DNA of 23,665 bases from a virus, in IMG/VR virus record IMGVR_UViG_3300010151_000166, positions 1-23,665 of that record. The stretch is one strand, 5' to 3'. This document shows positions 1-17,000 of the stretch, piece after piece. A program made the translations under genes and the position numbers. A model generated the notes under the pieces. The model ran no database searches. It saw only the letters and a list, made by a program, of their open reading frames with translations, and was not told the DNA's origin. The stretch's first letter is position 1. Each line of letters opens with the position of its first letter.

Positions 1-69
1 AATTCGCTCAAGAAGTTTCGCAAGAGATATTATAATTTCAAGCAAGATTGGGAAGATGGCACAATATGA
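1..69 (+). CDS. 3' end of an upstream gene (partial)
   Basis: Frame 1 is open from the left edge and ends at TGA 67-69, giving a short basic, aromatic tail (ending ...FKQDWEDGTI). The stop overlaps the ATG at 66 of the next gene in an ATGA arrangement, which is typical of translationally coupled phage genes and is the main reason to prefer this frame. The competing frame 2 is also open to a TAA at 74-76 but gives a less gene-like tail and a longer overlap. Only 22 residues are visible, so no function can be assigned. Confidence 0.5.
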   Translation, partial: NSLKKFRKRYYNFKQDWEDGTI

Positions 70-356
70 GCAATAAAAATTTAGAAACTCTAATCGATGA
101 AGCGCTAGATAATATTCGTGACGATAGAAAAGTTGCGAGAGAGTTTTTAAATGAGATTGCCAACCAGATTGCAAAGGATTCAGAACAGAACAAGTATTTA
201 AGTCCCGTGGCAGCCAAGCATATCGAAACGATGCAGAGATCAAACGAACAATTGGTTAAACTGATTGGTTTGCGACAGAAAGGACAAACACAGCAAGTAG
301 GACTCACAGAAGAAGACAAGAACGATTTATTTGATTTGATTCAGAGCGCCCCCTAA
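66..356 (+). CDS. Small helical phage protein, unknown function
   Basis: A 96-residue protein starting MSNKNLETLIDEALDNI. It is almost wholly charged and predicted helical, with no cysteines, signal peptide or membrane segment. I chose the ATG at 66 over an in-frame TTG at 48: the ATG overlaps the upstream stop (ATGA) and has GGAAGA at 51-56 about 9 nt upstream, whereas the TTG would overlap the neighbour more. The stop TAA at 354-356 overlaps the next ATG (TAATG). The pattern of a helical N-terminus, a central segment with a conserved-looking AAKHIETMQRSNEQLVKL stretch and a polar tail is compatible with a small oligomerising phage protein such as a terminase small subunit or an assembly chaperone. 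That is a guess from shape only; I do not recognise the family. Confidence 0.75.
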   Translation: MSNKNLETLIDEALDNIRDDRKVAREFLNEIANQIAKDSEQNKYLSPVAAKHIETMQRSNEQLVKLIGLRQKGQTQQVGLTEEDKNDLFDLIQSAP

Positions 357-1435
357 TGTCTAAAAGTACAGATTGGAAACAAGCTAATTACGCCATTTGG
401 TCCCGCCGTCGCGCCCAAGATACTTATGGAAAGAACAATATATTTAAAGCGAGGGCGCTTACACAAGGATTTGTTTTGACGCCTGCGATGGCCAAGGGCC
501 TTGAGGCCACGCGCGCTGGCAAGGAAGGAGACGACAAAGACACTCGACATGTTAGAATGTATTTTATAGGTAGAATATTGGGCCCAAATTCGCCACACAA
601 ATTTTTACCAGATCCCTGTGACCCGATTTTTACAGATGCAGAAACTACTGCATGTGCCTTGAATGCGATTTCCCTCCATACAATCTTCATTACAACAAAA
701 GATTTTAATTATGGTGATAAGGATGCTATATCCCCTAATGATATTTTTAATGTTGCTTTAAAGGCTGGCACTGGCAATGCGCCATATAATTTACAAGTTG
801 GAATGGCCTTGAATAGAAATAAGAAATTTCAGGCAAGGAACAACAAAGATGATACAGAAAATTGTAAAAAGTTAAGTAGTATGGATTTTGCAGGTGCCAT
901 TGACTGCGGCATGCCCACACCTGATCCGAAGACGAGTACAATCGCTGGTCAAAGTGTGACAAATGGCAAGTTGCCGAGTGATATGTTGGCAGGAGTTGAT
1001 ACAAATAATTCGAGTGCCGGCACCGTTCTGGCCGCCGCCGTTTCTGATTTTAATAAGATGGCTGCTGCCTTTAAAACAAATTTCGTAGAGAAGTTCCCAC
1101 TAAATAATGGATATCGTAGTTACGCAGATCAGGTCAAGGTTGCATGCATGTATGCCAGCGAACCAGGGCGCGCCGCAGAACCCGGCACTTCAAATCATGG
1201 CTGGGGCCTGGCTTTTGACATGAATGTTCCCGGCGAGGGGAACACCACCGCACAGTTCGCGCATGCTTATTATATATGGATGGCGGCCAACGCGGGAGAT
1301 TATGGATGGGTTAACCCATCATGGGCCCGCCAAGATTGCAATTCGGCCGTCCAGAAGTGCAAGGCAGAGCCTTGGCATTGGGAATATACCAAACCGACAA
1401 CACCACCTCTCGCTGAGACTGACGCCTCCGAATAG
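356..1435 (+). CDS. Baseplate/tail-associated M15 (VanY-type) peptidase with N-terminal adapter module
   Basis: A 359-residue, two-part protein. Residues 1-156 form a module shared with the next gene, including GRILGPNSPH at 72-81 and YNLQVGMAL from 144. A polar linker (about 157-235) leads to a C-terminal domain with the signature of zinc D,D-/L,D-peptidases of family M15: GYRS with Arg254, then HGWGLAFD with His281 and Asp288, then EPWHWEY with Glu338 and His341. In VanY-like enzymes these are the two His and one Asp zinc ligands and the catalytic Glu. The expected reaction is hydrolysis of peptide bonds in peptidoglycan stems or cross-links. Having no signal peptide or holin beside it, and sitting in a baseplate operon, it is better explained as a virion-borne wall-opening enzyme than a free lysis endolysin, though endolysin remains possible. 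The shared module may be an OB-fold-like hub part (inference). Start is coupled to the upstream stop (TAATG). Confidence 0.85.
   Translation: MSKSTDWKQANYAIWSRRRAQDTYGKNNIFKARALTQGFVLTPAMAKGLEATRAGKEGDDKDTRHVRMYFIGRILGPNSPHKFLPDPCDPIFTDAETTACALNAISLHTIFITTKDFNYGDKDAISPNDIFNVALKAGTGNAPYNLQVGMALNRNKKFQARNNKDDTENCKKLSSMDFAGAIDCGMPTPDPKTSTIAGQSVTNGKLPSDMLAGVDTNNSSAGTVLAAAVSDFNKMAAAFKTNFVEKFPLNNGYRSYADQVKVACMYASEPGRAAEPGTSNHGWGLAFDMNVPGEGNTTAQFAHAYYIWMAANAGDYGWVNPSWARQDCNSAVQKCKAEPWHWEYTKPTTPPLAETDASE
552..585 (+). repeat. Direct repeat block 1, copy A (partner 1654-1687)
   Basis: A 34-nt stretch identical at both sites. The match extends upstream by nine more identical bases (542-550 with 1644-1652) after a single mismatch at 551/1653. 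It encodes the RMYFIGRILGP core of the shared N-terminal module, in the same frame in both genes. Confidence 0.9.
787..807 (+). repeat. Direct repeat block 2, copy A (partner 1883-1903)
   Basis: A 21-nt identical stretch encoding the NLQVGMA segment at the end of the shared module. It lies close to where the two paralogous proteins diverge into different C-terminal enzymes. Confidence 0.85.
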
Positions 1436-1437
1436 GA
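1434..1437 (+). promoter_or_regulatory. Ribosome binding site for the hydrolase paralogue
   Basis: AGGA overlaps the TAG stop (1433-1435) of the upstream gene and lies 8 nt before the ATG at 1446. It decides the start: the frame is open upstream to 1224, but 1446 aligns with the start of the paralogue and has this site. Confidence 0.6.
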
Positions 1438-1445
1438 TAAAATTG

Positions 1446-2582
1446 ATGTCTGATAATACAGATAGTACAGATTGGAAAATAGCTCTTGAATTGATCTACG
1501 CAGAGTCGCCTGAAAAGCGAGATATCTACGGCAAAAATAATATATTTCAAGTAGTTGCTCTTACTAATGGATTTACTTTGACCCCGGCCATGGCCCGCGG
1601 GCTCGATAGTGCCTTTCGGGCTGGTGACAACGACAAAGGAGATACTCGACATATTAGAATGTATTTTATAGGTAGAATATTGGGCCCCCAATCCCCGCAT
1701 ATGTTTTTACCATTTCCTTATGATCCGGCCATATCTGAAAATGAGAAATGCCATCTCAATGCAATTTCGCTTCATACGACTTTTCTTACGGCAGATGATT
1801 TTGTTTTTGATTCCAAAGAACCTATCTCAAAAGGAGATATTTTTAATGTCGTTTTATTCCCTGGCACTGGAGATGATCCATTTAATTTACAAGTTGGAAT
1901 GGCATTGAGTAGAAATAAAGAAGAAACACACGCTTCTATAAAGGGGATTAGCGAATCAATACAAAATATGTCTTATGACACAACGTTCTCACCGCCCGCA
2001 GCACCAGAATTGCCTGTTACCCCAGGAGACGAATGCAAGCCATTGACCACTGGAGATGTTGCGTATCCTTGTTTAACAAACACTTCTGTAAGATTGGTTG
2101 TTTTTTATCATGGTGTAGAAAGCCACGGTAATCAAGCAGTTGTGCTTGGAAAACTTAAAGAAATTGGTATTGCCGATAATGTAATGTTTTTGATTCCCAA
2201 AGGTCGCGACAAAAATTATGCTGATGTTGAACAATCAATTGAAGAGTTGGTAAAATTAAATGGGCTCACGATAACAGATAAATATTTGGGAGCATGGAGT
2301 GGTGGTTCGGTTGGATTTAAAACGGCATTTTATTATGGCACTCGACCATGGCCCGGCGAATTTAGTGAAACCATGTTGGCGGATCCTTCTCCATTTCAAT
2401 GGACCGAGGGTGTTACATATATGGAATATAGACCAGAAAATTGGACAGGCCCAAACGCAGAACTTGGACAACAGCAGATTCCAATGGCAGAACAAATTGA
2501 AAACGCTGGAGGTAAAGCTGTCCACGTAGCTCTCGGCCATGAAGAAATTTTAGTGCAGATCTTAAAGAGATTGGCAGCATAA
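1446..2582 (+). CDS. Adapter-module protein with C-terminal alpha/beta-hydrolase-like domain
   Basis: A 378-residue protein. Residues 1 to about 158 are a close paralogue of the N-terminal module of the preceding M15 peptidase (GRILGPQSPH at 76-85; NLQVGMAL near 147-154). After a Pro-rich linker the C-terminal half is unrelated to M15. It looks like an alpha/beta hydrolase: VVFYHG with His222-Gly223 as a possible oxyanion region, GAWSGGS with a nucleophile-elbow serine at 285, LADPS with Asp313, and LGHEE with His365. The order Ser-Asp-His and the spacing fit the fold's catalytic triad. The substrate is unknown; an esterase, deacetylase or depolymerase acting on a cell-surface polymer fits a virion setting. 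The ATG at 1446 is 10 nt after the upstream stop, with AGGA 8 nt before it; a longer in-frame extension back to 1224 overlaps the M15 domain and is rejected. A non-catalytic hydrolase-like binding domain is an alternative. Confidence 0.8.
   Translation: MSDNTDSTDWKIALELIYAESPEKRDIYGKNNIFQVVALTNGFTLTPAMARGLDSAFRAGDNDKGDTRHIRMYFIGRILGPQSPHMFLPFPYDPAISENEKCHLNAISLHTTFLTADDFVFDSKEPISKGDIFNVVLFPGTGDDPFNLQVGMALSRNKEETHASIKGISESIQNMSYDTTFSPPAAPELPVTPGDECKPLTTGDVAYPCLTNTSVRLVVFYHGVESHGNQAVVLGKLKEIGIADNVMFLIPKGRDKNYADVEQSIEELVKLNGLTITDKYLGAWSGGSVGFKTAFYYGTRPWPGEFSETMLADPSPFQWTEGVTYMEYRPENWTGPNAELGQQQIPMAEQIENAGGKAVHVALGHEEILVQILKRLAA
1654..1687 (+). repeat. Direct repeat block 1, copy B (partner 552-585)
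   Basis: Second copy of the 34-nt identical block, encoding the same RMYFIGRILGP core in the hydrolase-bearing paralogue. Confidence 0.9.
1883..1903 (+). repeat. Direct repeat block 2, copy B (partner 787-807)
   Basis: Second copy of the 21-nt identical block near the end of the shared module. Confidence 0.85.
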
Positions 2583-2633: not shown

Positions 2634-3653
2634 ATGGGTAAAAGAAAATTAATTAGACAAAATTTCGTTGAATGTGATGTGGGAGATATTGGAACAAGCG
2701 TTGCCGGCGAAAGTACTGCTCCAGAACTCGTAGAAGACAGAATTAAGCAGGGGAAGCCAGTTAATCAGGCAATGGGGGGTATATTTCATACGTCTCCCCC
2801 ACATCCATTTGTTACTTTTAATTCTGCTACGAACGAGAAACGAATCGGAGCAGACGGCGCCGACATTGTTTTTGGACAAGATCGTCCAACTGGATTGTCC
2901 TCGGGCTTTGGCTTCAAGGGCATCTTTTCTCCAACAATTGATCTTGTTGTGGGTAGAGTCTCGTCGGCAAAAGATGGAGAAGGCCCATGTGAGGGAATGT
3001 TTGTTGATAACAACTTTGCTGCCGACGCCGCAAGAATATATATAAGTCGGCTGACCAAGGTAGATACAAATTTTGGTATTGTAAGAGCAGGTTCAGGAGG
3101 CAGCACCCCGGAACCCGGCCGGTCAGGAATTGTAATTAAAGCCGATAAAGTTAGAGTTATTGGCCGAGAAGGTGTAAAAATTGTTACCGGCAAAATGCAG
3201 GGCCTAAAAGCCGGCACAGACGGAGAACTTAATTCTGTCGGGGGTAAAATAGAACAGGCCCCTACCATTGAGTTAATCGCCGGCAATTATGGCGAATACC
3301 GAACAGTGTGGGGAGGAGCGGCCAACATGCGGGAACGGATTGAATATTTACAGCCAGTTATCAAGGGAATTAACATGCAAGATTGTATAAAAGAATTACG
3401 AGGCATGCTTGATCGCACATTGGCAATGCTTCAGAACTTTATAACAACCACAATAACTGCATTAGGGGTTATTGGGATCGATCCGATTCGGAGTTGGGTT
3501 CCATCGGGCTGTTCAACATCTGTGCAGATGGCGATAAACTATGCGTTAGTTCCCGTATATACTCTACAGGCAGATCTTATAGCTTTTGAGCAAAATTATC
3601 TAGAATGGTCCGGTTACAAATGGATCTGTAGTAAAAGCGTTAGGACGACTTAA
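2634..3653 (+). CDS. Putative baseplate spike-like structural protein
   Basis: A 339-residue protein with two parts. Residues from about 65 to 235 are Gly/Val/Ile-rich with alternating short strands: DIVFGQDRPTG, IDLVVGR, ARIYISR, SGIVIKADKVRVIGREGVKI. This resembles the repetitive strand pattern of phage spike or beta-helix/OB-type needles. Residues from about 235 on are helical (LQPVIKG, then a leucine-rich stretch around 260-290) and end in an aromatic, Cys-containing tail. No signal peptide or enzyme motif is seen. Its place after the two enzyme-bearing adapter proteins and before the giant baseplate-operon protein makes a spike, spike adaptor or hub-associated role reasonable, but this rests on fold pattern and context only. 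It starts after the window's strongest RBS; its stop is 2 nt before the next start. Confidence 0.75.
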   Translation: MGKRKLIRQNFVECDVGDIGTSVAGESTAPELVEDRIKQGKPVNQAMGGIFHTSPPHPFVTFNSATNEKRIGADGADIVFGQDRPTGLSSGFGFKGIFSPTIDLVVGRVSSAKDGEGPCEGMFVDNNFAADAARIYISRLTKVDTNFGIVRAGSGGSTPEPGRSGIVIKADKVRVIGREGVKIVTGKMQGLKAGTDGELNSVGGKIEQAPTIELIAGNYGEYRTVWGGAANMRERIEYLQPVIKGINMQDCIKELRGMLDRTLAMLQNFITTTITALGVIGIDPIRSWVPSGCSTSVQMAINYALVPVYTLQADLIAFEQNYLEWSGYKWICSKSVRTT

Positions 3654-3655
3654 CT

Positions 3656-6600
3656 ATGGCACGTTCAGAATTTTTACCATATCAGGATGCAGATGGCGAT
3701 GGCCTAATTGACGTTTGTGATGATGTGATGGATGTTGCGGAAGTAGAAGAATGTCCAACTTGTACACCAAATCCTTCCGCGATTGTTCCCAATTGGCGAA
3801 AATTAAAAATTTATGAACCTTTTTTAAATGAAAAAACGTGCCAGTATCAGATTACGATAACAACGCATCATACAACAACGGGCGCCCCAGAAAATGCCAA
3901 CGAGGAACAATCCGCCGCGGCCCTTAAAGAGATATATGATGAAAATGTTGAAAAAGCGATTCAAGTTTTATTAGATGTGTTTGACAAAGATGATTCTGAT
4001 GCCTCTAAGGAGGTAGTTGGAGCCACTATTGAATATACGGATTATGATTTAGCCCCTCGTCCCAAATCTAGATTAAAACTGCTTTATTCTGTGCCGTATG
4101 ATATTATAGATGGATTAGATGAAGCCTCCGGCGATGAGGATGATGAAGAGGACGATGAAAGTACTGATGTTACAGTAACATATATGGCATATGAAATGGT
4201 ACCCAAATGGCTGGATGCTAGAAAGGGCTTATCACTTTATGGCAGATATTTGAAAATTTTTCGACAGCTTGAAAATTCAAATATTTTATTTTTGAATGAT
4301 AATTCGGTTTTTAATTTAGAAGATTATGGTGATTATGGTTTTGGGGAATCCGTTTTAAAAGACTTGTTAAATCAATTGGATGACTTTTTAAGATCCAAGG
4401 GGTACAATATAGCTGGTGTTGGTGTTTTCTCGTTTGGTGGCGGCAACAGATCTATTAAAAATATAAAAGTTGAAAAAATATTTTTTAGATTTAGCAAGGA
4501 ATATGAATTAAAGAAAATAAAAGTATATACAGCGGATTGCCCAGAAGATCCTATATCCTATATAAGCAAATTATCATCACTAAAAGCTAAATCTGCATGG
4601 AAAGACCCTACAGCGGTAGCATATTGGGCCCATTTAGATGAAATAGAAGTGGATCTTAAGGCAACAACACCTCTTCCATGGTTGGATTTTGTTAAGAAAT
4701 ACACCTATCCAGAAGTGTATACAATGGCAAATGCTGAATATGATCCGGATGCAGAGGGCCCCCTTACTTGTATCGGAGAAGCGCTTGCAAGCGAAGCAAA
4801 ACAAATTGGTAGTGATGTAATGGATGAAGTATTTGGTTTGGCAGATGCAATTGCATATAAATTTCACGAAAACTTATGCACCGACGCCGCCGGCCAAGAA
4901 TCAATACTACAAAAACTAGGCCAACGGGTCGATCCGAAGACCGGTCAGTCGGAGTCAGTTGCCGCCGTCGCTCAGGCGCAGGCATACGAAGAACTAGAAG
5001 ATAGCAATCCATTTCTCTTTTATTTCTGTAATGAACTTTTAAAAAGTGTATCTGGCGGTACTACCGGCTCTGCTACTAAAAGTCCCGGTGTTAAAGCTTG
5101 GAATTCTGGATTCGCGGAATTGGTTGGCAAACTTTGGGTTTGCGGACTTTTGGATTTGTTGGCATCGGCCATTCAGTGTTTATTCGCGGGACTATCATTA
5201 GAAGAAGCTCTTGCGAGCATGGTAGAGAACGCTCTTAAAGCAATGTCAATTGATAATTTTGGTGATTTGTTTATTGGGCTCCCCCCAGAAAAACAAGCAG
5301 AGCTATCTGCCTTGGTACAGAAAAATCTTGATGAAGGTAATATTTTTAAAGAAGGATCAGCCGCCGATTTGGCCTCCGACGATGTTACGGGAAACTATAT
5401 TGCGACTGAACCATGGGCATCTGAATCAGTCATTGAAGAAGAAAAAGATAATATGACAGAGGGTTCGTATGAATCAATGACTCGCAGCGAATATGAAGAA
5501 TATACTACAGGATCTAGACGCTCCTTGGCAACCACATATGATTATGCAACTAGCGCCCAAGAAGGCACCGAAGAATTGAGTAACAGCATTTTAATGGAAG
5601 CCTATATTAAAGCACTAATAGAAGTATATTCGGAAAACTTGTTGGATTTGGTAGATGAATTAAACAAGTTTCCAGGCGCCGAGATTGTATCTTCAGTTCT
5701 CGCAACCCTCGTTTGTCCCATCCCAGCTATGTTTAATCCCAGTATAATGGACTTTGTTAAGGATCTTGAGCTTCCGTTTTGTAGAAACATGAACGAACTC
5801 GCTCTACCGAGACTCGAATGGCCTACAAACTGGTTGTCATATATTAAAGATCTCTTGGGGTCTTTGAAAGACGCAGCCATTTGGGCCCTCAATGAGCTAT
5901 TATACAGAATTCTTATTATGCTAATGGTAAAGATTTGTGAATTAATAGGAGATGCAATTTGCAAGGCGCTAGAAACTGCTGGTGATTTAGCAGCCGCATT
6001 GCCAGATCTTTTAACTGGAAGAGATAATCTCTCTAATGTAATTGGAGAATCAATTTGCGGCGATGATGCCGACGATGAAAAGGTTAATGATACAATTGCG
6101 GAAATGTTCCAATTGCTTGGGAATGGCGGCGCCGCGTTTAGTGACCAAGAACAAGTTATAGCTTTTGCTGGAGATCTTTCTTCAGCAGTTACGAAACAAG
6201 AACTAACAAACTGGATCTTGGGGGATCCTTCCGCAGCCCTTTTGGAAGTCGTAGATAATTTGATCGAGTTTGAATATCCAGATTTTAGAGACAGCATAAG
6301 AAACGAAGGAGATGCTGCGAGCTTGGGTAGAAATATAGGTAATTTGATGCCGGTAGATTTTAGGGCCGGCCTGAAAGATCTCGTAGATTCCCTTCCTAAA
6401 AATCAAATCTTGCCGGCCAATCCTAGTTTGTGTGCTAGTCCGGAACAAATTGAACAATTTTGTGAGTTAAGGGCAGAATTACTATCTGGTAGAGCCTCGC
6501 CGGAACAGATTGCTAAAATGTGTGAGGATACTCCTTCGTTGGGTGATTTAGATGATTTGGGCAAGGTTTTGCAAGATGGAATTCCGAATTACATAAAAAA

Positions 6601-9600
6601 CAATATGCCTCCCCTTATGTCGGATCCTGGTTGCGACAATGGATTGTTACCTTTCGAACCAGAAACTACAATTGCGGCCGCCACTGTATCTCTGGGTAAC
6701 GAGCTTGAAATGCTTAAGGTTGATTTTTCAACTGACATGCTTGGCAACGGCCCCGGAGAAAAAAATTGGGGGATTATAAATATGATTCTTTCCGATACAA
6801 TGGGCAATCCTCTAACTGCACATCACAGGAAAGCGTTTAGTCAAAAGAGGTATGTTGATTTCAATGTTGAATATGATTTGAAAGATCTGCTGGCGGACAA
6901 CGCCACCGCGCTCGCAGATTCCGGCGCGGCCGTTCTGCTCGCCCCCGTCCTCGCGGCAATTTCTGCAATGGGTAGCGGCCCCGCCTTGACTCCTCGTCAG
7001 AGAGGCGCCTTTCCGGCGAATGTTGCCGAATGGTTGCAGGAAGAAATGACAAACATAAATGTAACCTACGCTTCAAACAATGACTGGAAAAAAGATAGAA
7101 TAATTTCAAAGACGCTCTCAGATTATACAAGCATTTTTCGGCCGGCCGTTAATTTTCTGGGATTGGTAGACATGGGATATAATGTCGAAACAGAACCAGA
7201 TTATGAAAATGATAAATTAGATTTTATTGTGAAAGGGCGTAAACAAACCCCGGATGTGACTTTACAGTTTAGAGATAATTCAAGAGGCGCCGCCAGCAGG
7301 GGATTGATCAACTTCCAAGAAGGATTTGATCTCGAATTTTATCTTTCCGATTTGGAAGAACATGTAGCAGAATTTAGAGGTGATACCGAAGGCCCCCGCA
7401 ATTTACCTAGCGATAATGTAAGAATTAAAATAGTTGATGTGCGCGACACATCAACCGATTTCTCGCTTCTCGCCCCCGCAACACTTATGCCCATCCCCAT
7501 TCCCGGCGCCGCCGCAACTTCTTTATTCAAAAAGGAGACCGAACGAATCAGCAAAGATAGAAGATTTGAATTTATAGCGATCGATGATACGCTTGGAAAC
7601 ATGGAACTAGATGAATATCCTACTTTTTTAAGTACTTTTGAAACTAAATCGTCATATACTCCACAAGTTGTACTACTCGCAGAAATGCTTAATAATGCCG
7701 GCGCCAGCATCGGTAACAAAGAACAAATTAAGAACACTTATGATTCGATTATGAGCAATTTTTTGCAAACAATTTTTCAGTCTGTTGCATCCAATGAAGC
7801 GGCATTTAATTATGGAGCAGAATATGATAGCTTAACGTCGGGAGATGCTATGTATGTCGTCCCCGATAATACTACTGATGTGCCATCGGAATATTGGGGC
7901 GGTGCATATGAAGACGCGCAAATTACAGATTCTGAAACCGAAGATCTGCGCCCAATTGAAAACGATGACCAAATTCTTGGTGTTAGTTACATGCAATATT
8001 CAATCGAATCCGGCACAAGAGATGAAGAAAATAGAGTATTTTTTCTAGATCCGACAATCTTTGGTGGCAATTATATGAACCCTGCTGTTTATGTTAAGCC
8101 TTTACAAAATAAAGGTTGGTTGGGATTTGTAGATGTAATGTTTCCGGACCTGAGCCCCTGTAAGCCACAAAACACAGATTTAATTGATTTTGGTGACATT
8201 CAAGATATGATTGATGAAATTTATCCTAGCATCCCATTTGACGAAAGATTAAAATCTGATCCTAATTGTGTTGTCGAGGTTCCATATAATAGAATTTTAG
8301 ATCGCACCGCGGTCGCTGGCTTGCAAGGATTGATTAGTGCTGCAATTAGAGTATTTGTAAGTGTGCATTTCATCAAATCTTTGGCAACGTTCACTAAATT
8401 TAGCCCACAGTTTCCTCAAAATTATAGTTCTCTATACGCATCTTATATTGTTGAAGATATGGAGGCCGCCTTTAAAGATTCTCAAAAAGCAGGTTGGGAA
8501 TTCTTTAATCCGTTTAAAGATGACGAATTTTGGTATGCGTTTTTGGAGCAATCAGTTCAAATGTACGGCCGTCGCTTAGATCAGGGCGATATTCAAACTC
8601 CACCTACGGCTGTTTTGGATGCTCTTTTCAGATTAAACGACTTGCAGGAAGATTATGATTATGCAAACACAGAGGATCTTAAAGAAGCAAAAGACAACGA
8701 TGAAGTTGGTCGACTTAAAACTCTTAAAAATTATCGTGTCGATCAAAATCTTGAAGCCGTTTGGGAAACTCAAGAAGATGCCAAATTAATCCTTAAAGAA
8801 TTGGTGATGGAACAGGTCAACTTTATGACCAAAAAATTCATGAAAAATCTTAAGATTGTTGGAATGGCTCCCGATGTTCACGATATGGGGTATTACTTAC
8901 TTGAAAACTTCACTCAAGGAAGCAGTCTCACAATTAATGAAAACGTGAAAGCGGGGGGATCCATACGAGAACAATATATTAATTTACCCGCAGTTCCCAT
9001 TGAAGAAGATGTCGATATGGAGTTTCATAATGAGGGGGATGAGGCATATTATACACATGGTGGAGAATTTATTGTTAAAGAAGATAGAGATGAAGAAGGG
9101 TGGAATGTTGGTCAAGAATATATTGGATATTATCATGTTATGATTGATTCAGAAGCCGATGATATTATTTATATGGTTGGCGAATATCACGACGAAGATC
9201 CGCATGATGTTTTATATCCAATGGTTAACAAAGTCGAAGTTGCAATTGGAGATGTAAGCGAATATGGTAGTACCTCTTCTTCCACTTCTACGACACAACC
9301 ATTTGTGGTTGAAAAATACGTGAGTATTAATGGCACCCGGGTGAGCCCTGCCGCGGCTAAATCAACAATTGCTAGCCAAGATACAACTCTGCTCATATCA
9401 GATGTATATCCCGGTAATTTAAAAATTGCCAATGATGTAAATGGGTATCCAGTTGGCCTCCTTGGAGAGCTTGGTGTTCGCCATGGCATTGTTTTTTATA
9501 TGACCTTTGGCGGCACTAAATATGAAATTGCATCTGCCGAAGTCGATGCACTTGATTTACCAATGAATAAATTTACTGTTGCAGAAGCGAATAGTAAGCT

Positions 9601-10258
9601 ACTGCTTTGTTTGATCAATAATTTGAAAGAAGATGATAGATTTAAATTAATGTCCAGGTATATTTTCCCCCTTAACAAATTTACATCACTCACAGCAATT
9701 TATAATAATTTAGGCTTTTTACCTTCAATTGGAGAAATAACTGTTGATGAGGGTGAAACTTTCCTGAAAATTAATCCGCTCATGGCAGCCGACGTGTCGC
9801 TCGGTGTGGGCGAAGGCCCCTTGGCCATGGCCGCCGCCGCGGCGGCTTTCGATTCGGCTAAAAAACCAGGCATGCATGCGGAAGTTGAAACAGATGACGA
9901 TGGTTTTGTCACCAGTGTCTCAACAGAGGGTGTATCCGGTTGGGCTTCAGCAGAAGATCGGGAACCCGGATTGCTTGGTGGTTTGTTTGTTCGAGAATGG
10001 GATAATTGGGATCAAGTATTGTTAAGAAATTCAAAGAGTCGAATTAAAAAACTATTTAAAAATCATTATAATTCTAGAGACTTTGATGTTGATGAGATCG
10101 GCGGCAAAGAATCGTCCCCCGGCCAGGTTGTTTTAAATCAGTTGAAGGACGCCCTAAAACCCCGCACAGGCGAAAAGATATTACCTAGATTTCGGCGCCG
10201 ACGTTTGATATCAAATCCATTTAATGCTGATGGAGAATTGTGCGAAAACAAAGATTGA
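3656..10258 (+). CDS. Giant (2200-aa) structural protein with calcium-loop-like N-terminus
   Basis: A single open frame of 2200 residues, start ATG 3656 with AGGA at 3642-3645. The N-terminus has an Asp-rich loop, D11-A-D-G-D-G-L-I-D-V-C-D-D23, matching the thrombospondin type 3/EF-like calcium-binding pattern, followed by a CPTC pair (Cys33, Cys36). An acidic run lies at about 155-170. Two strongly hydrophobic helical stretches occur at about 489-516 (LWVCGLLDLLASAIQCLFAGL) and 740-772 (AIWALNELLYRILIMLMV). A 20-residue tandem repeat starts ASPEQI at 927 and 947, each with Cys at the tenth position (936, 956). A run of alanines sits near residue 2058, and the C-terminus is basic (RFRRRR). 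No enzyme motif is recognised. Its place just upstream of gp25 and gp6 suggests a baseplate or tail-tip component. A tape-measure role is less likely because no tail-tube genes are adjacent and the length is not mainly coiled coil. It may be a novel family. Confidence 0.85.
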   Translation: MARSEFLPYQDADGDGLIDVCDDVMDVAEVEECPTCTPNPSAIVPNWRKLKIYEPFLNEKTCQYQITITTHHTTTGAPENANEEQSAAALKEIYDENVEKAIQVLLDVFDKDDSDASKEVVGATIEYTDYDLAPRPKSRLKLLYSVPYDIIDGLDEASGDEDDEEDDESTDVTVTYMAYEMVPKWLDARKGLSLYGRYLKIFRQLENSNILFLNDNSVFNLEDYGDYGFGESVLKDLLNQLDDFLRSKGYNIAGVGVFSFGGGNRSIKNIKVEKIFFRFSKEYELKKIKVYTADCPEDPISYISKLSSLKAKSAWKDPTAVAYWAHLDEIEVDLKATTPLPWLDFVKKYTYPEVYTMANAEYDPDAEGPLTCIGEALASEAKQIGSDVMDEVFGLADAIAYKFHENLCTDAAGQESILQKLGQRVDPKTGQSESVAAVAQAQAYEELEDSNPFLFYFCNELLKSVSGGTTGSATKSPGVKAWNSGFAELVGKLWVCGLLDLLASAIQCLFAGLSLEEALASMVENALKAMSIDNFGDLFIGLPPEKQAELSALVQKNLDEGNIFKEGSAADLASDDVTGNYIATEPWASESVIEEEKDNMTEGSYESMTRSEYEEYTTGSRRSLATTYDYATSAQEGTEELSNSILMEAYIKALIEVYSENLLDLVDELNKFPGAEIVSSVLATLVCPIPAMFNPSIMDFVKDLELPFCRNMNELALPRLEWPTNWLSYIKDLLGSLKDAAIWALNELLYRILIMLMVKICELIGDAICKALETAGDLAAALPDLLTGRDNLSNVIGESICGDDADDEKVNDTIAEMFQLLGNGGAAFSDQEQVIAFAGDLSSAVTKQELTNWILGDPSAALLEVVDNLIEFEYPDFRDSIRNEGDAASLGRNIGNLMPVDFRAGLKDLVDSLPKNQILPANPSLCASPEQIEQFCELRAELLSGRASPEQIAKMCEDTPSLGDLDDLGKVLQDGIPNYIKNNMPPLMSDPGCDNGLLPFEPETTIAAATVSLGNELEMLKVDFSTDMLGNGPGEKNWGIINMILSDTMGNPLTAHHRKAFSQKRYVDFNVEYDLKDLLADNATALADSGAAVLLAPVLAAISAMGSGPALTPRQRGAFPANVAEWLQEEMTNINVTYASNNDWKKDRIISKTLSDYTSIFRPAVNFLGLVDMGYNVETEPDYENDKLDFIVKGRKQTPDVTLQFRDNSRGAASRGLINFQEGFDLEFYLSDLEEHVAEFRGDTEGPRNLPSDNVRIKIVDVRDTSTDFSLLAPATLMPIPIPGAAATSLFKKETERISKDRRFEFIAIDDTLGNMELDEYPTFLSTFETKSSYTPQVVLLAEMLNNAGASIGNKEQIKNTYDSIMSNFLQTIFQSVASNEAAFNYGAEYDSLTSGDAMYVVPDNTTDVPSEYWGGAYEDAQITDSETEDLRPIENDDQILGVSYMQYSIESGTRDEENRVFFLDPTIFGGNYMNPAVYVKPLQNKGWLGFVDVMFPDLSPCKPQNTDLIDFGDIQDMIDEIYPSIPFDERLKSDPNCVVEVPYNRILDRTAVAGLQGLISAAIRVFVSVHFIKSLATFTKFSPQFPQNYSSLYASYIVEDMEAAFKDSQKAGWEFFNPFKDDEFWYAFLEQSVQMYGRRLDQGDIQTPPTAVLDALFRLNDLQEDYDYANTEDLKEAKDNDEVGRLKTLKNYRVDQNLEAVWETQEDAKLILKELVMEQVNFMTKKFMKNLKIVGMAPDVHDMGYYLLENFTQGSSLTINENVKAGGSIREQYINLPAVPIEEDVDMEFHNEGDEAYYTHGGEFIVKEDRDEEGWNVGQEYIGYYHVMIDSEADDIIYMVGEYHDEDPHDVLYPMVNKVEVAIGDVSEYGSTSSSTSTTQPFVVEKYVSINGTRVSPAAAKSTIASQDTTLLISDVYPGNLKIANDVNGYPVGLLGELGVRHGIVFYMTFGGTKYEIASAEVDALDLPMNKFTVAEANSKLLLCLINNLKEDDRFKLMSRYIFPLNKFTSLTAIYNNLGFLPSIGEITVDEGETFLKINPLMAADVSLGVGEGPLAMAAAAAAFDSAKKPGMHAEVETDDDGFVTSVSTEGVSGWASAEDREPGLLGGLFVREWDNWDQVLLRNSKSRIKKLFKNHYNSRDFDVDEIGGKESSPGQVVLNQLKDALKPRTGEKILPRFRRRRLISNPFNADGELCENKD
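6434..6553 (+). repeat. In-protein tandem repeat (2 x 20 residues) in the giant protein
   Basis: Residues 927-946 and 947-966 both start ASPEQI and both have Cys at the tenth position, followed by charged residues. The DNA copies have diverged at synonymous sites, so this is an old duplication, perhaps a helical hairpin. Confidence 0.6.
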
Positions 10259-10287: not shown

Positions 10288-10656
10288 ATGTCTTCTTTAT
10301 CGGTTGCTTTGCCATTGAAAGTCAGTCTTGTCGATGGTTATGTGATGAATAAAAGTTTAAAATCTTTAATTAAACAAAATTTAAAAATGCTTATATTGAC
10401 AAATCCTGGCGAAAGGGTGATGGAGCCAGCTTTTGGCGCTGGGTTAAATCGGTACTTGTTTCAGAATTTCACTGAGAGCACATATTCAGAAATAGATACA
10501 AGAATAAGAGAACAAGTAACCAAATATATGCCTTCGGTTAAAATAAACAGAATTTCCTTTGATCCCGGTGGGCAAGATTTTAATAAGTTATCTGTTTCCA
10601 TTGAATACTCTGTACCAAAGATTCATGTTAGGGATTTATTAGAGTTTACTATTTAA
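10288..10656 (+). CDS. gp25: Baseplate wedge protein, GPW/gp25 family
   Basis: A 122-residue protein with the hallmark of the GPW/gp25 family: the segment TNPGERVMEPAFGAGL followed by a hydrophobic, Asn/Phe-rich stretch (NRYLFQNF), then a helix and two strands. Length (about 120-130 residues) is normal for the family. Phage T4 gp25 is a small wedge protein that joins the inner baseplate and contacts the sheath; despite an old lysozyme-like label it acts structurally. The start ATG 10288 has GAGGT at 10272-10276 about 11 nt upstream, in a 29-nt gap after the giant protein. The next gene is the expected wedge partner gp6, 15 nt downstream. Confidence 0.92.
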   Translation: MSSLSVALPLKVSLVDGYVMNKSLKSLIKQNLKMLILTNPGERVMEPAFGAGLNRYLFQNFTESTYSEIDTRIREQVTKYMPSVKINRISFDPGGQDFNKLSVSIEYSVPKIHVRDLLEFTI

Positions 10657-10671: not shown

Positions 10672-12468
10672 ATGGCAGACGAACAGAAAAAAATAGTACC
10701 GATTGATTATACACATAGAGAGTTTGAAAGTATACGTAAAGATTTGATGCAAATTGCAGAAAGATTTTATCCAGATACCTTTCAAGATTTTAGCGAAGCC
10801 TCCTTTGGAGCATTAATGCTTGACGCTGTTGCTTATGTGGGTGATCAGCTTTCGTTTTATTTAGATTATAACGTTAATGAAACTTTTCTCGATACCGCGT
10901 ACCAATATAGCAATGTCTTGAGGCTTGGTAGGGCAATGGGATATAAGGACACAGGGCGCCCCTCTACCTATGGTCAAGTAGCGCTTTTTATTTTAGTTCC
11001 TGCTTCTACCACGGGTATTGGGCCCAACACAAATTATGTTCCCATTCTCAAGAGAGGTACCCGATTTTCGTCAAACACGGGTTTAGGTTTTGTGTTGACT
11101 GAGAATGTAGACTTCGCAGATCCAAAAAACCCTGTTGTTGTGGCAACAGTAGATACAACAACGGGCGCCCCCACCAAATTTGCGATTAAGACATACGGAA
11201 ATGTTGTTTCTGGTCATTTTGGTGTAGAACAAATAGCCATCGGCGCATACGAAAGATTTAAAAAAATAAAGTTATCAAGCGCCAATATTTCGGAAGTTGT
11301 TTCGATTATTGATTCCTCCGGCAATGAATATTTTGAAGTAGAATATCTATCTCAAGATATTATATACAAAGAGCTTACAAATAATAATTATAAAAATGAT
11401 AATGTGCCGTCTGTAATTAAGCCATTTTTAGTTTCTAGAAAATTTGTTATTGAAAGAGATCGCAATAATGTTTATTTACAATTTGGAAGTGGCAAAACAG
11501 GAGCTTCTAATGTGGTTGCTGAACCACAAACGGTTGCATTAGAGATTTTTGGTAAGGATTATGTCACAGATACAACTTTTGATCCATCGCGCTTATCTAA
11601 AAATGAAAATTTTGGTATTGTTCCATCGAATACTACGTTAACGATTACATACAGAGTTACGAACCCTTTGAATTCAAATATCGGCTCGGCCGGACTAAAT
11701 TCGGTTTCTTCACCAAAATTTGAATTTAAAAACAGAGAAACACTCGCAAGAACCACAACCCGGGATGTTATTGATTCTTTGGAGGTATCAAACGAACAGC
11801 CAATCGTGGGAAACACAACCACCGCCAATACAGATGAATTGAAAAAAAGAATATATGATACTTTTCCAACACAAAATCGCGCCGTGACACAGGCAGATTA
11901 TGAAAATGTTGCTTATAGGATGCCTGCTAAATTCGGTTCAGTTTCTAGATGTTCTGTGCAAAGAGATCCAGATTCTTTAAAGAGAAATTTGAACATGTAT
12001 GTAATTTCTGAAGATCGTTTTGGTAAGCTTACTACAACTAACTCAACTATTAAAAATAATTTAAAAACTTGGTTAAATAATTATAGAATGCTCAATGACA
12101 CAATTGATATTTTAGACCCTCATATAATCAATATTGGCATTGATTTTGTTATCAAGGCGGCAACAGGTACCGATAAATATTCTTTATTAGATTCGGCCAT
12201 TCAAACCCTTCAGGTACATTTTAATACAAAGTTTTATATAGGCGAATCATTATATATTAGCGATATTTATCAAGAATTAAAAGGTGTTAAAGGGGTGTTG
12301 GATGTAACAAGGGTAAAAATAAATAATAAAACTGCCTCCCAATATGCCAATTCGCATTTAGATATCAATGCGAATTTGTCTCCAGATGGAAGTCATTTGA
12401 TTGTGCCACGTAATGCAATTATAGAAATTAAATTTCCAGCAACAGATATTAAAGGTAAAGTTAGATAA
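10672..12468 (+). CDS. gp6: Baseplate wedge protein gp6-like (baseplate J-like)
   Basis: A 598-residue protein. The N-terminus (about residues 5-100) has the pattern typical of gp6-type wedge proteins: a DYTHREFESIRKDL helix, then DFSEASFGALMLDAVAYVGD, a tyrosine-rich helix and a NVLRLGRAMGYK segment. The C-terminal third has a baseplate-J-like region, starting near AVTQADYENVAYRM and running through a hinge around GVLDVTRVKI. In T4, gp6 forms the inner iris ring of the baseplate, and gp25 and gp53 bind beside it. The adjacent gp25 homologue supports the call. The usual gp6 length is about 600-660 residues. Its stop overlaps the ATG of the next gene (TAATG), implying translational coupling. 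Confidence 0.9.
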   Translation: MADEQKKIVPIDYTHREFESIRKDLMQIAERFYPDTFQDFSEASFGALMLDAVAYVGDQLSFYLDYNVNETFLDTAYQYSNVLRLGRAMGYKDTGRPSTYGQVALFILVPASTTGIGPNTNYVPILKRGTRFSSNTGLGFVLTENVDFADPKNPVVVATVDTTTGAPTKFAIKTYGNVVSGHFGVEQIAIGAYERFKKIKLSSANISEVVSIIDSSGNEYFEVEYLSQDIIYKELTNNNYKNDNVPSVIKPFLVSRKFVIERDRNNVYLQFGSGKTGASNVVAEPQTVALEIFGKDYVTDTTFDPSRLSKNENFGIVPSNTTLTITYRVTNPLNSNIGSAGLNSVSSPKFEFKNRETLARTTTRDVIDSLEVSNEQPIVGNTTTANTDELKKRIYDTFPTQNRAVTQADYENVAYRMPAKFGSVSRCSVQRDPDSLKRNLNMYVISEDRFGKLTTTNSTIKNNLKTWLNNYRMLNDTIDILDPHIINIGIDFVIKAATGTDKYSLLDSAIQTLQVHFNTKFYIGESLYISDIYQELKGVKGVLDVTRVKINNKTASQYANSHLDINANLSPDGSHLIVPRNAIIEIKFPATDIKGKVR

Positions 12469-14084
12469 TGGCTCTAAAAAACTATACAGCTAGCGCCGAC
12501 ACCACAATCGTTAACGTATTTCAGCCCGATTTGGCCACTCGCGGAACTGGTGCGAATATGGGGGCAGCGGATGTGGTCGAGGTTTTCTCGATTTATGGAA
12601 GGGTAACTACAAGTTCACAAGAACTATCAAGGGCTCTTATTAAGTTTCCCACTACAAAAATCGCCGCAGATCGCACCGCTGGCACAATTCCAGCTAGTGG
12701 AGATGTTAGTTTTTATTTAAAGATGTTCAATGCAGAACATTCAAGAACCATTCCAAGAGATATTACTTTTATGATTCGGCCAATATCTCAAGATTGGGAA
12801 GAAGGGGTGGGATTAGATTTAGAAACATATGCTGACGAAACAAAAGGATCTTCTGGCGCCAATTGGATGAGTGCTTCAAAAAATACTGCATGGACTGGCA
12901 GTACGCTTTCATCGGTTTCTGATGTTACAAATCGTTCGGTGGGCGGCTCTTATTTAACTAGTGCTGGAGATCCGGTATTTAAGGTCACGCTCCCTTCCGG
13001 TCTAGAGGATATAGATGTTGATATTTCTTCGCTTGTAGAAAAATGGATAGCCGGAACAATTAATAATTATGGTGTCGGTATATACCTTTCATCTAGTTTG
13101 GAGGCATCTGCATCTTCGCTGGCTAATACAAATGATGCTGCCGTTTTGCCACTTACTGGAGGAGCCCAAACTTCTTATTATACCAAGAGATTTTTTGCAA
13201 GAGGAACTCAATATTTCTTTAAGAGGCCGACAATACAAGCTCGTTGGGATTCCACAGTTAAAGATAGTCGAGGAGATGTATATTTTAGTAGCTCGCTAGC
13301 GCCACCCGCAGATAACATGAATACATTGTATTTTTATAACTATATTCGCGGAAAGCTGACCAATATTCCAAGTTTGGGCACCGATAATAGAGTTTATGCA
13401 AGTATATTTTCGGGAAGTGCAAATAATTCAGCGCCTTCGGGATCCGCCTTGGTTTTGTCTCCCGACAATAGTGGATATGTTCGCAGCGCCGAACCTACCG
13501 TTATAACTGGTGGTCTAGTAACGACGGGAATATATTCGGCTTCTTTTGCGCTTACGGGCACCACATCAATAACCACCTTATACGATGTTTGGTTTACTGG
13601 TAGTGATACTATGATAGCCACATCCTCTACAACACAATATTTTACTGGTTCTTTCTTTCCGCAAGTGGTGAATCCGGCCCAGACAGTATCTAAGCCTACA
13701 TATTATTTGAATGTAACGAACCTAAGAGGCAAATATCGAGCCGACGAAACAGCAAGATTTAATTTGTATATCAGAAATAAAAACTGGAGCCCAACTATTT
13801 ATACAGTAGCAAATTCAACTCCGGATAGTACAACTATAGTAAGTGCCTCTTATCGAGTATTTAGAACGATGGATGCCTATGGAGCAGTCCCATATGGAAC
13901 TGGATCCGACTTACACACGCACATGTCTTATGATGTGTCGGGTAATTATTTTGATTTTGATATGAATCTTCTCGAACCCGGATATGAATATGCATTTAAA
14001 TTTGCTTTTTACGATTCAGCACTAAACTCTTGGTCAGAACAACCGGGAGCATTTAAGTTTAGAGTAGAAGATTATGAGTATTAA
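12468..14084 (+). CDS. Beta-rich structural protein with DNRLRE-like N-terminal domain
   Basis: A 538-residue protein, Ser/Thr/Gly/Tyr-rich with few charges and no cysteine. The N-terminal ~270 residues show a pattern resembling DNRLRE-type beta domains: an early ADTTI strand, then RALIKFP, VSFYLKMFNAEH, IRPISQDWEEG and NW plus later strands ending near RPTIQARW. The remainder alternates strands and Thr/Ser-rich loops, as in phage fibres or baseplate periphery proteins, and ends in an aromatic-rich YEYAFKFAFYDS segment. It starts 1 nt inside the end of gp6 (TAATG) and overlaps the next, giant gene by 11 nt. By position it sits where T4 has gp7/gp8-type wedge genes, but I see no clear sequence evidence for those. 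A role in attaching peripheral baseplate fibres is an inference. Confidence 0.8.
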   Translation: MALKNYTASADTTIVNVFQPDLATRGTGANMGAADVVEVFSIYGRVTTSSQELSRALIKFPTTKIAADRTAGTIPASGDVSFYLKMFNAEHSRTIPRDITFMIRPISQDWEEGVGLDLETYADETKGSSGANWMSASKNTAWTGSTLSSVSDVTNRSVGGSYLTSAGDPVFKVTLPSGLEDIDVDISSLVEKWIAGTINNYGVGIYLSSSLEASASSLANTNDAAVLPLTGGAQTSYYTKRFFARGTQYFFKRPTIQARWDSTVKDSRGDVYFSSSLAPPADNMNTLYFYNYIRGKLTNIPSLGTDNRVYASIFSGSANNSAPSGSALVLSPDNSGYVRSAEPTVITGGLVTTGIYSASFALTGTTSITTLYDVWFTGSDTMIATSSTTQYFTGSFFPQVVNPAQTVSKPTYYLNVTNLRGKYRADETARFNLYIRNKNWSPTIYTVANSTPDSTTIVSASYRVFRTMDAYGAVPYGTGSDLHTHMSYDVSGNYFDFDMNLLEPGYEYAFKFAFYDSALNSWSEQPGAFKFRVEDYEY

Positions 14085-17000
14085 GAAACTTTTTGGTTCT
14101 ACCGATAAGTCAAATAATTATCTTTCTGATACAAATCAGAAGGACGCTTTTCAAGATGCCGAATCGGCGCGTAATGTTAGGGCGATCAAAGAAAAGCAAG
14201 AAACATTTGTACCTCAAATCGATTGGTCGGAAACTAAAAACTTTGCCAAATATGGTTCAGCTTATTTATACTATAAAGGTGCAGTTGAGAGGATTCATGA
14301 TTATTATCCTTACGATGGCTCTGATGCGGAAATCAATGAATTTTATAACAACCTATTGGGTGTTGAAAAGTATATTTTTGATAATGAATACCCCAGAACA
14401 AATGGTTATGCAATTATTAGTGCCGATGGCTGGGGCACGACAACGATTAATTCCGGTTCTGGCTATGGATTACCAAGTGAGCTAGAATATATTACTTTTT
14501 ATGGCGGACCAAACTCTTCTTCATATACTACATTAGATGGCGCCTTTTCAAATCCGCATGATAGCAGGTTCCAATATTCCAATATTTATGACACCAGCAT
14601 TTATCAAACTGAGGGGCTTCCAACTGATTATGGAGATGGCACCCGGGAATCAAACTTAAAATCAGATTTTGATACGGGTGTCACTGTTGAGTTTTGGCTA
14701 AAGAAAGACGGCTTCAACAATGCCCTTACTTCTAAAGAAGTTGTGTTTGACATGTGGAACAATAACGATCCACGGGCGGTTGATTACGGCCGATTAACAA
14801 TTGAACTAACAGGTGCCACCACCCCTGCCAGTAGTTTGTCGCCCTTCTTAATAACAGCGCAATCTGGCACGACAGGTATATTTACAGCATCTATCGGACA
14901 AAATCTCACTGCCGATTCTTTAAAATCTTGGCAACATTATGCGATTTCTTTCTACAACTCTGGTAGCAACTTTGTTTCAAAACTATACGTTAGTGGCACT
15001 TTAAATGATACATATATTGAAAATTCACTAACATTAGGCGAATTGCCCGAAAAAGATTTAATGGGGCGTATTGGATCGCTGTTGACAAATGTGGGCCCCG
15101 CGTCCGGTACCATCACCAAGCCAGCGCTGGCAGATGCCGTCTTGTTTAACGCGGCCACCGGTTCTGGGAAACTTAGTGGCTCTTTGGACGAATTTAGATT
15201 TTGGAAGGAAGCCAGAAGTGCCAACGATATAGCACGAAACTATATTGGTCAAGTTCGCGGCGGCGTTAATTCAGACATAAGCAATACGACATTAGGTATA
15301 TATTTTAAATTTAATGAAGGAATCACCGGAACATCAAGCGTCGACGATACGGTATTAGATTATAGTGGTAGAATTGGCAATGGAGTTTGGACAGGATATG
15401 ACACTTATTCAAGAAATACGAATTCAGCCATTGTGGAGTCCAGCGCCTCCGCGACAGAATATAAAGATCCGATTATATATTCATTCCATTCGGATGTTAC
15501 AACATTAAAGGGTAATCTATTAGATAGCGGCTCATATCATGATTCTAATAATAATGGCTCTTTTCTGAGCTTAATGCCTGGCTGGGTTGTTGAGGAGCAA
15601 GATGACGAAACTTCCGATCTTAAGAAGCTTACACATATTGTAGGCGTCTATCTTGATAAGCTACATTTACAAATTTCGGCCCTGCCTGCGCTAAAGACTA
15701 TAACATATACAAGTTCTTCGCACAAGCCACTTCCATTTGCTCAACATCTTCCGCAATCTCTTGGATTGTATATGCCGGAATTATTCATCGATTCCGATGT
15801 AATGGAGAAATTTTTAAGTAGAGATCAGACGAGTCTTTTTGAATCCGACTTAGATGAGACTAAGAATTTAATTTATCTGAATTTGTATAACAACCTCGCC
15901 GGTATTTACAAAAGCAAGGGAACCGAAAAATCAATTAAAAATGTTTTTAGATGTTTTAACTTAGATGATAGACTGATTAAGTTAAGTACATATTCGAGCG
16001 GCAGAACGTTTCCTCTAAAAAACAATCTTGAGCAGACACTAGTAAACAAAACACATATTAATTTAAACAAGAATGAGAACAAAGCCGCCGTAGTATATCA
16101 GGCAAAAGGCACTTCCGAGACTTCCGCTACCGCAGTAGACGCTATTGACACAACTGGTGTGAAAGCCACCCTTCTTGATGTTACGTTTACGTTTTCTGTA
16201 CCTCCGGCGAAGGGTGGCGAAGGTGGTACAACCACGATATCGCTGCAAAAGTCTGCAACAACCTCACCAACGGCCGGCGCAAGTTCGATTGGTATTGGTT
16301 TTAGTAACAAGACAGATGCTGAAATTGCTGAACTTATTATCAATGCCATCAATGGGGCTTCGAAGACAAATATTGTCTTTGCGACCTCGGCAAACGGACA
16401 ATCCGGCTACCAGTCTGGTATTAGGGCATCCCAAGGCAGCAGTAATACTCAAATTACGCTTACGATGATTAGTCCCGGGAGTGACGGTAATCTTACTAAC
16501 GCAATTGCCGAAGGTGTTCACAGTGGCGAGTCGGTTGTTGTTGTAACAGACTTTACCGGCGGAACTGGCGAAAGTAGCGGCCATATTTCCGGAAGTGCCA
16601 GCCGGCTGCCGAATGGAACCGATGAAGGCGAGGCCCTCGAAGACAAATATGGACTTACCGTAGAAGCAGATATAACATTCCCATATTTTAATATCGATAA
16701 TGATCCTGTACATAGAAACTTTTACACAGCATCATTGTTTGGCGTGCATACGGTTTTTACGGGTGCTACGAGTCCCGTTACCACTTATCCTTTCAATTCT
16801 CTTTCTGCTTCTCGCGACGGCACAGATACCACATTATTGACCGGTAGCCAAGATTATGCAAATTTCCAAGTTTTTGCTTGTAGGGATGAATTAGGTTCTA
16901 AGAACGTACACTTTAGATTGGATTCTTTAAATGCTCCTAATCCTCTTCCGGCCCTTACTAGTAGCACCTTTTTCAATGTTTATGACAATGACAGATGGAA

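Follow-up and report, generated by a model that had tools for sequence, protein, structure and literature searches.

The stretch of DNA analysed here, referred to throughout as the window, covers positions 1 to 23,665 (23.7 kb) of the IMG/VR virus record IMGVR_UViG_3300010151_000166. Near its start lie two adjacent genes on the plus strand, gene 1 (356-1435, 359 amino acids) and gene 2 (1446-2582, 378 amino acids), both with intact open reading frames (ORFs). The longest mechanical ORF for gene 2 begins at 1224, but homology starts at the ATG at 1446. Each gene encodes an N-terminal module, spanning residues 1-155 in gene 1 (356-820) and residues 1-157 in gene 2 (1446-1916), and each continues into a different enzyme domain. 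The two N-termini align with 54% identity across 174 amino acids (E = 6e-60); over the 155-residue module, identity is 59%, and the corresponding DNA is 70% identical across 414 nucleotides. No similarity was found when the C-terminal halves of the two proteins were compared. The original prediction, made from the letters of this DNA, that neighbouring genes share a module of about 155 residues and then diverge into unrelated domains is thus borne out. The possibility that one gene is a decayed copy of the other was also considered. It can be ruled out, because both ORFs are open and the ratio of nonsynonymous to synonymous substitutions (dN/dS) between the two modules is 0.36.

The enzyme domains belong to different chemistries. 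The C-terminal half of gene 1 (domain at residues 227-345, 1034-1390) matches the Pfam family VanY (PF02557; E = 2.2e-15, 57 bits against a cutoff of 25). The four residues proposed for an M15 zinc peptidase, H281, D288, E338, and H341, are all at the positions named and sit in the M15 pattern HGWGLAFD...EPWH. No sequence family was found for the C-terminal half of gene 2 (domain at residues 199-378, 2040-2579). Its AlphaFold model is an alpha/beta-hydrolase, with a confidence score (pLDDT) of 60 to 94 across the domain block. In VIA-align, it matches the esterase domain of LC-Est1 (3wyd_A; Z = 12.4, root mean square deviation 3.0, 162 residues), and many other esterases match near Z = 11. The suggested triad residues S285, D313, and H365 are at the positions named, and all three are conserved in gene 1 of locus L040, from a distant phage (25-29% identity, two sequences compared). 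A search of IMG/VR found relatives of this domain in L040 only, and a sequence search of the PDB found none. The same locus (L040:7293-9589) carries the pairing seen in the window, a hydrolase and an M15-type peptidase, in reversed order.

The shared module is predicted to adopt an OB fold. Modelled alone with 79 sequences, it reaches an AlphaFold pLDDT of 81, and its list of PDB matches in VIA-align is dominated by OB-fold proteins. Phage spike and hub proteins recur in that list, including those of P1 (9vzk, Z = 6.6), Mu (9ki1, 5.5), E217 (8eon, 5.5), SN (Orf41, 4ru3, 5.1), and Pam3 (7yfz, 5.0), with further matches from Pa193, PhiTE, and A-1(L). Foldseek alone found no PDB match for the module under E = 0.001. 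In BFVD, its best match had E = 1.2e-3 and TMq = 0.54 (A0A516MAZ1, 785 amino acids). This protein and A0A516M7H8 (TMq = 0.46), the best viral fold matches, could be relatives in known phages.

The module had been inferred in advance to be an OB fold of gp5-like nature. The fold is supported by the module-only prediction and the OB proteins it matches in the PDB; membership of the Gp5_OB family (PF06714) is not, as neither protein in the window matches that profile. No protein on 14 contigs of 84-203 kb passed the Gp5_OB cutoff, which the T4 control passed easily (E = 1.8e-68, 226 bits). Nor was a C-terminal triple beta-helix found on the same chain; the chains end with the enzyme domain. We do not file the module under the gp5 family, since tests for the Gp5_OB profile and for a beta-helix on the same chain found neither. 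The order of domains does follow gp5, as the OB domain leads straight into an envelope enzyme: an M15 peptidase in gene 1, an alpha/beta-hydrolase in gene 2, and a GH24 lysozyme in locus L061.

Scans of IMG/VR with the window's two modules alone returned nothing or two loci, and it was the neighbouring genes that gave access to relatives. Immediately before the pair is a conserved gene of 96 amino acids (66-356, plus strand; 65-68% identity in L003 and L004), which served as an anchor to fetch 80 loci. A further 80 were kept from more than 500 IMG/VR matches to the conserved 339-amino acid protein encoded directly after the pair (2634-3653, plus strand; 64-member alignment), and many of these were contigs already in the first set. 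Since loci were chosen by similarity to the window's neighbouring genes, the frequencies that follow do not describe the group as a whole. Among 82 distinct loci with both borders, the slot between them contains one module gene in 69, two in 7, and three in 6, and none contains zero or more than three, as counted with a hidden Markov model partly built from the surveyed loci themselves. The anchor lies upstream of the slot in 82 of 82 complete loci, every gene listed between the borders encodes a module protein, one conserved gene always follows directly, and the setting is a baseplate cluster. On the 14 large contigs, the module is confined to the slot, in one to three copies. The module therefore does exist outside the window, always in baseplate loci and with many different C-terminal partners, which is the outcome named in advance as support. 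The tandem pair with a swapped enzyme had, if anything, been understated: 13 of the 82 loci have two or three copies.

The range of partners is broad. Pfam searches with 81 non-redundant C-termini from the first set matched VanY (24), M23 (9), M15_4 (7), Amidase_2 (4), a tyrosine-phosphatase type (4), Phage_lysozyme2 (3), a glucosaminidase-like type (2, weak), and GH24 lysozyme, SLT, and GDSL-like domains (1 each), counting matches with E up to 0.01 and allowing a single protein to match several models. The GH24 lysozyme, in L061, is of the T4 gp5 type (E = 2e-18). Two further groups are lysozyme-like by motif alone, and PDB profile searches with them found no match. The cysteine-phosphatase-like group bears the signature HCxHGxDRTG in five of five members and matches solved tyrosine phosphatases. 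Fusions of the module to this domain, whose activity would be unusual in a tail enzyme, occur at L036:4863-6602, L045:9662-10987, and in the first genes of L073, L074, and L075. Among isolate phages, tblastn found no relatives of the module, the anchor, the 339-amino acid protein, or the 2200-amino acid protein described below, although M15 and GH24 domains on their own do find matches there. Sequence searches of PHROGs and the PDB with 79 modules and 64 downstream proteins found no convincing family.

Two nearly identical phages record a direct exchange of the enzyme. On either side of the enzyme domain, over 5.4 and 5.7 kb, the DNA of loci L017 and L019 is 95% and 94% identical, but the domains themselves are unrelated: one phage has an M23 peptidase (E = 5e-17), the other a lysozyme-like domain. 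The differing stretch is L017:7781-8501 versus L019:7781-8645. Identity drops within a few codons behind the conserved module tail CMSMETLFR (residue ~186) and resumes exactly at the stop codon. Most members have a Cys and a short LF-type motif behind the module (L017 residues ~172-186), which window gene 2 lacks; the L017/L019 junction is directly behind this motif. Across the survey, placing enzyme types on the module tree takes 36 changes, where shuffled labels take 40.2 ± 1.3 and the minimum is 12, and enzyme and module are therefore nearly independent. Enzyme classes for this test were single-linkage BLAST clusters, Pfam-checked on representatives and with 12 proteins left unlabelled, and the tree, built by a quick search, leaves many forks open.

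Tandem copies recur across the module tree. In most tandem loci, the modules are closest to each other while the enzymes differ: the window modules share 59% identity with each other and 43% with the best outsider, and the L030 and L040 pairs share 91% and 79%. A clade of three-gene loci (L073-L076) shows a different pattern, in which most modules are closest to the module in the same slot of other genomes, with different enzymes attached; slot 1 forms a starred clade, and slots 2 and 3 are grouped less firmly. The module is under purifying selection in tandem pairs, with dN/dS of 0.04 in L030, 0.12 in L040, and 0.36 in the window. An enzyme class is never repeated within a locus, a weak trend (P = 0.05; P = 0.16 without near relatives).

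The surrounding genes place the slot in a baseplate cluster. Downstream of the 339-amino acid gene, and likewise on the plus strand, are a conserved gene of 2200 amino acids (3656-10258; the same order is found in L004), for which no Pfam, PHROG, or isolate match was found, a gp25-like baseplate wedge gene (10288-10656; Pfam GPW_gp25, E = 8e-15; PHROG baseplate wedge, E = 4e-21), and a gp6/J-like baseplate wedge gene (10672-12468; PHROG baseplate wedge, E = 1e-22). The gp6-like protein is 29-32% identical to those of Microcystis phage Mel-JY01 and the Flavobacterium immuto phages, the nearest isolates by this protein. Five of nine large contigs of the group, which is sizeable and uncultivated, carry a Gp23-family capsid protein, and we therefore regard the group as distant T4-type myoviruses. 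The end of the window (14074-23664) is occupied by an ORF of at least 3197 codons that runs past the window's edge and presumably encodes a very large structural protein.

We consider it likely that the module is an OB-fold adapter of the central tail hub in this T4-related myovirus group, displaying interchangeable penetration enzymes in the manner of gp5*. On the 14 large contigs, the module is found only in the slot and Gp5_OB stays below the cutoff, and it would therefore stand in for gp5, doing the job of the T4 gp5 OB domain. Each module protein would be the counterpart of T4 gp5* (OB plus enzyme), encoded apart from the presumed spike, for which the 339-amino acid protein is a candidate by position as a gp5C counterpart. 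Separate genes here would parallel the cleavage by which T4 splits gp5 into gp5* and gp5C. With the presumed spike encoded by a gene of its own, the OB-enzyme gene could be duplicated, to one to three copies, and its enzyme half replaced, leaving the docking part untouched. What the data show is the homology, the fold, the locus, the number of copies, the swapping of enzymes, and purifying selection on the module; a virion location, docking on the hub, the substrates, and the sharing of one trimer by different copies are inferred. The enzyme halves would hang beside the spike, and both window enzymes would be carried in the tail tip and do their work while the tail penetrates the envelope. The M15 peptidase of gene 1 may cut peptidoglycan peptides, and the esterase-type serine hydrolase of gene 2 may perhaps serve against an ester-bearing outer layer. 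Different copies would supply different chemistries.

Several points weigh against this assignment. The module proteins are known here from genes alone, and Z-scores of about 5-7 establish an OB fold rather than descent from gp5 or kinship with it. The gp27 profile (PF09097) was not detected in the relatives. The candidacy of the 339-amino acid gene as spike rests on position: searches for a family, PDB, or PHROG match to its product found none, the protein has no tandem octapeptide repeats, its [VI]xG motifs are scattered, and an hhalign comparison with the OB-spike-like proteins of the nearest isolates was not significant (E = 0.019, probability 2%). No fusion of module and spike was seen, as no ORF contains both the module and the downstream protein.

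How the copies would be arranged in a particle can be addressed with less confidence. We tentatively propose, at somewhat under an even chance, that the hub is a heteromer in which two or three paralogous OB-enzyme chains occupy their own places around the threefold axis, giving each particle complementary enzymes (for example, a peptidase, a lysozyme-like enzyme, and a phosphatase) that are exchanged by recombination behind the OB module. Slot-specific modules and the ceiling of three would favour such a mixed trimer. It is also possible, though less likely than not, that the same hub platform holds one kind of module protein per particle as a homotrimer, with tandem copies yielding particles of more than one kind or offering a choice between enzymes. 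The high similarity of modules within other phages leaves room for such alternative homotrimers, as proteins as alike as the L030 and L040 pairs could compete for the same places, and T4 gp5 is itself a homotrimer (PMC3004832). Against this arrangement, the modules of L073-L076 for the most part resemble those in the same slot of other genomes, as would suit fixed places that are not equivalent, and the copy number stops at three among the 82 loci. The absence of repeated enzyme classes within a locus points the same way, weakly.

Location elsewhere in the virion, with the module docking enzymes on the wedge, the fibre network, or the sheath, would make it a virion platform that is not equivalent to gp5. 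OB folds are common, the Z-scores are modest, the OB-enzyme chain has no beta-helix of its own, and gp27 was not detected, yet the slot always directly precedes one conserved gene in the baseplate cluster, canonical Gp5_OB stays under the cutoff in large relatives, and phage spike and hub proteins recur among the fold matches, so that we judge this location unlikely. It is very improbable that the proteins are free endolysins with an odd N-terminal domain, acting at the end of infection. M15, Amidase_2, and GH24 domains are typical of endolysins, and similar M15 domains of isolates are annotated as such; but all loci lie in the baseplate region, the OB module is under purifying selection and also carries enzymes that do not act on peptidoglycan (phosphatase and esterase), and one genome may have two or three module genes. 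That the pair is an accidental duplication without a special role, its second copy having gained a stray domain, would suit the single copy in 69 of 82 loci but is hardly credible given the recurrence of the hydrolase and M15-type pairing in distant L040, the tandem copies across the tree, and the conservation of both triad and module.

Our results indicate that a contractile-tailed phage can carry its penetration enzyme as an exchangeable cassette, mounted on an adapter that is itself conserved. The L017/L019 pair amounts to a natural experiment, with flanking DNA that hardly differs, and the long-standing question of how envelope enzymes are matched to hosts is opened to comparison. The likely set of tail-tip enzymes gains phosphatase-like, GDSL-like, and esterase-type domains. 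Hubs that bear enzymes, and the divergence of such hubs, are already known, as in T4 gp5 and pelagimyophage gp5 (PMC7029224). Searches of the open-licence literature, covering sources in part, found no description of an OB-enzyme platform that is encoded separately, duplicated, and fitted with swapped enzymes.

Several known systems resemble the platform. T4 separates gp5* (OB plus lysozyme) from gp5C by cleavage, and its OB domain is thought to be an adapter (PMC3004832). The likeness lies in an N-terminal OB fold followed by an envelope enzyme, within a baseplate gene cluster, and in L061 even by a GH24 lysozyme. The difference lies in the missing Gp5_OB match and same-chain beta-helix, and in one to three tandem genes with different enzymes where T4 has one. 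The spikes of P1, Mu, SN (Orf41), E217, and Pam3 share the OB fold with the predicted module (Z = 5-6.6). In these simple phages, OB and spike form one chain, and no sequence similarity was found between their spike proteins and the module.

Among phages, the platform would correspond to VgrG paralogues that differ in their effector domains. The VgrG of type VI secretion systems is a gp27-gp5 fusion with any extra domain placed after the spike. In both cases, hub or spike paralogues (presumed ones in the phages) bear different C-terminal functional domains within one system; here, by contrast, the enzyme domain is attached behind the OB module, and the presumed spike has a gene of its own. No relation to VgrG in sequence was found for the module, and no VgrG-specific profile or structure comparison was run. 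For the 'evolved' VgrGs of Vibrio cholerae, VgrG1 and VgrG3, a heterotrimer has been reported whose VgrGs differ in their C-terminal domains; the same source argues that in another species it is several effectors, and not the heterotrimer as such, that are needed (PMC8668125).

Closer to the group, the gp5 of pelagimyophages and cyanomyophages is reported to be highly divergent and to fall into several clusters, which has been interpreted as an adaptation to the wall of the host (PMC7029224). Tandem or separate OB-enzyme genes were not found in the parts of that source covered, and the isolates of these phages have no match to the module. The hub regions of Mel-JY01 and the immuto phages have a similar order of a small gene, an OB-spike-like gene, gp25, and gp6. 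They differ in having no module match, and the endolysin/chitinase-like enzyme of Mel-JY01 is a separate gene without a module. A further Mel-JY01 gene (L090:15505-16008), directly before gp6, is annotated as a 'tail lysozyme' but reads as a gp25-type wedge protein, and the label is probably an annotation carry-over.

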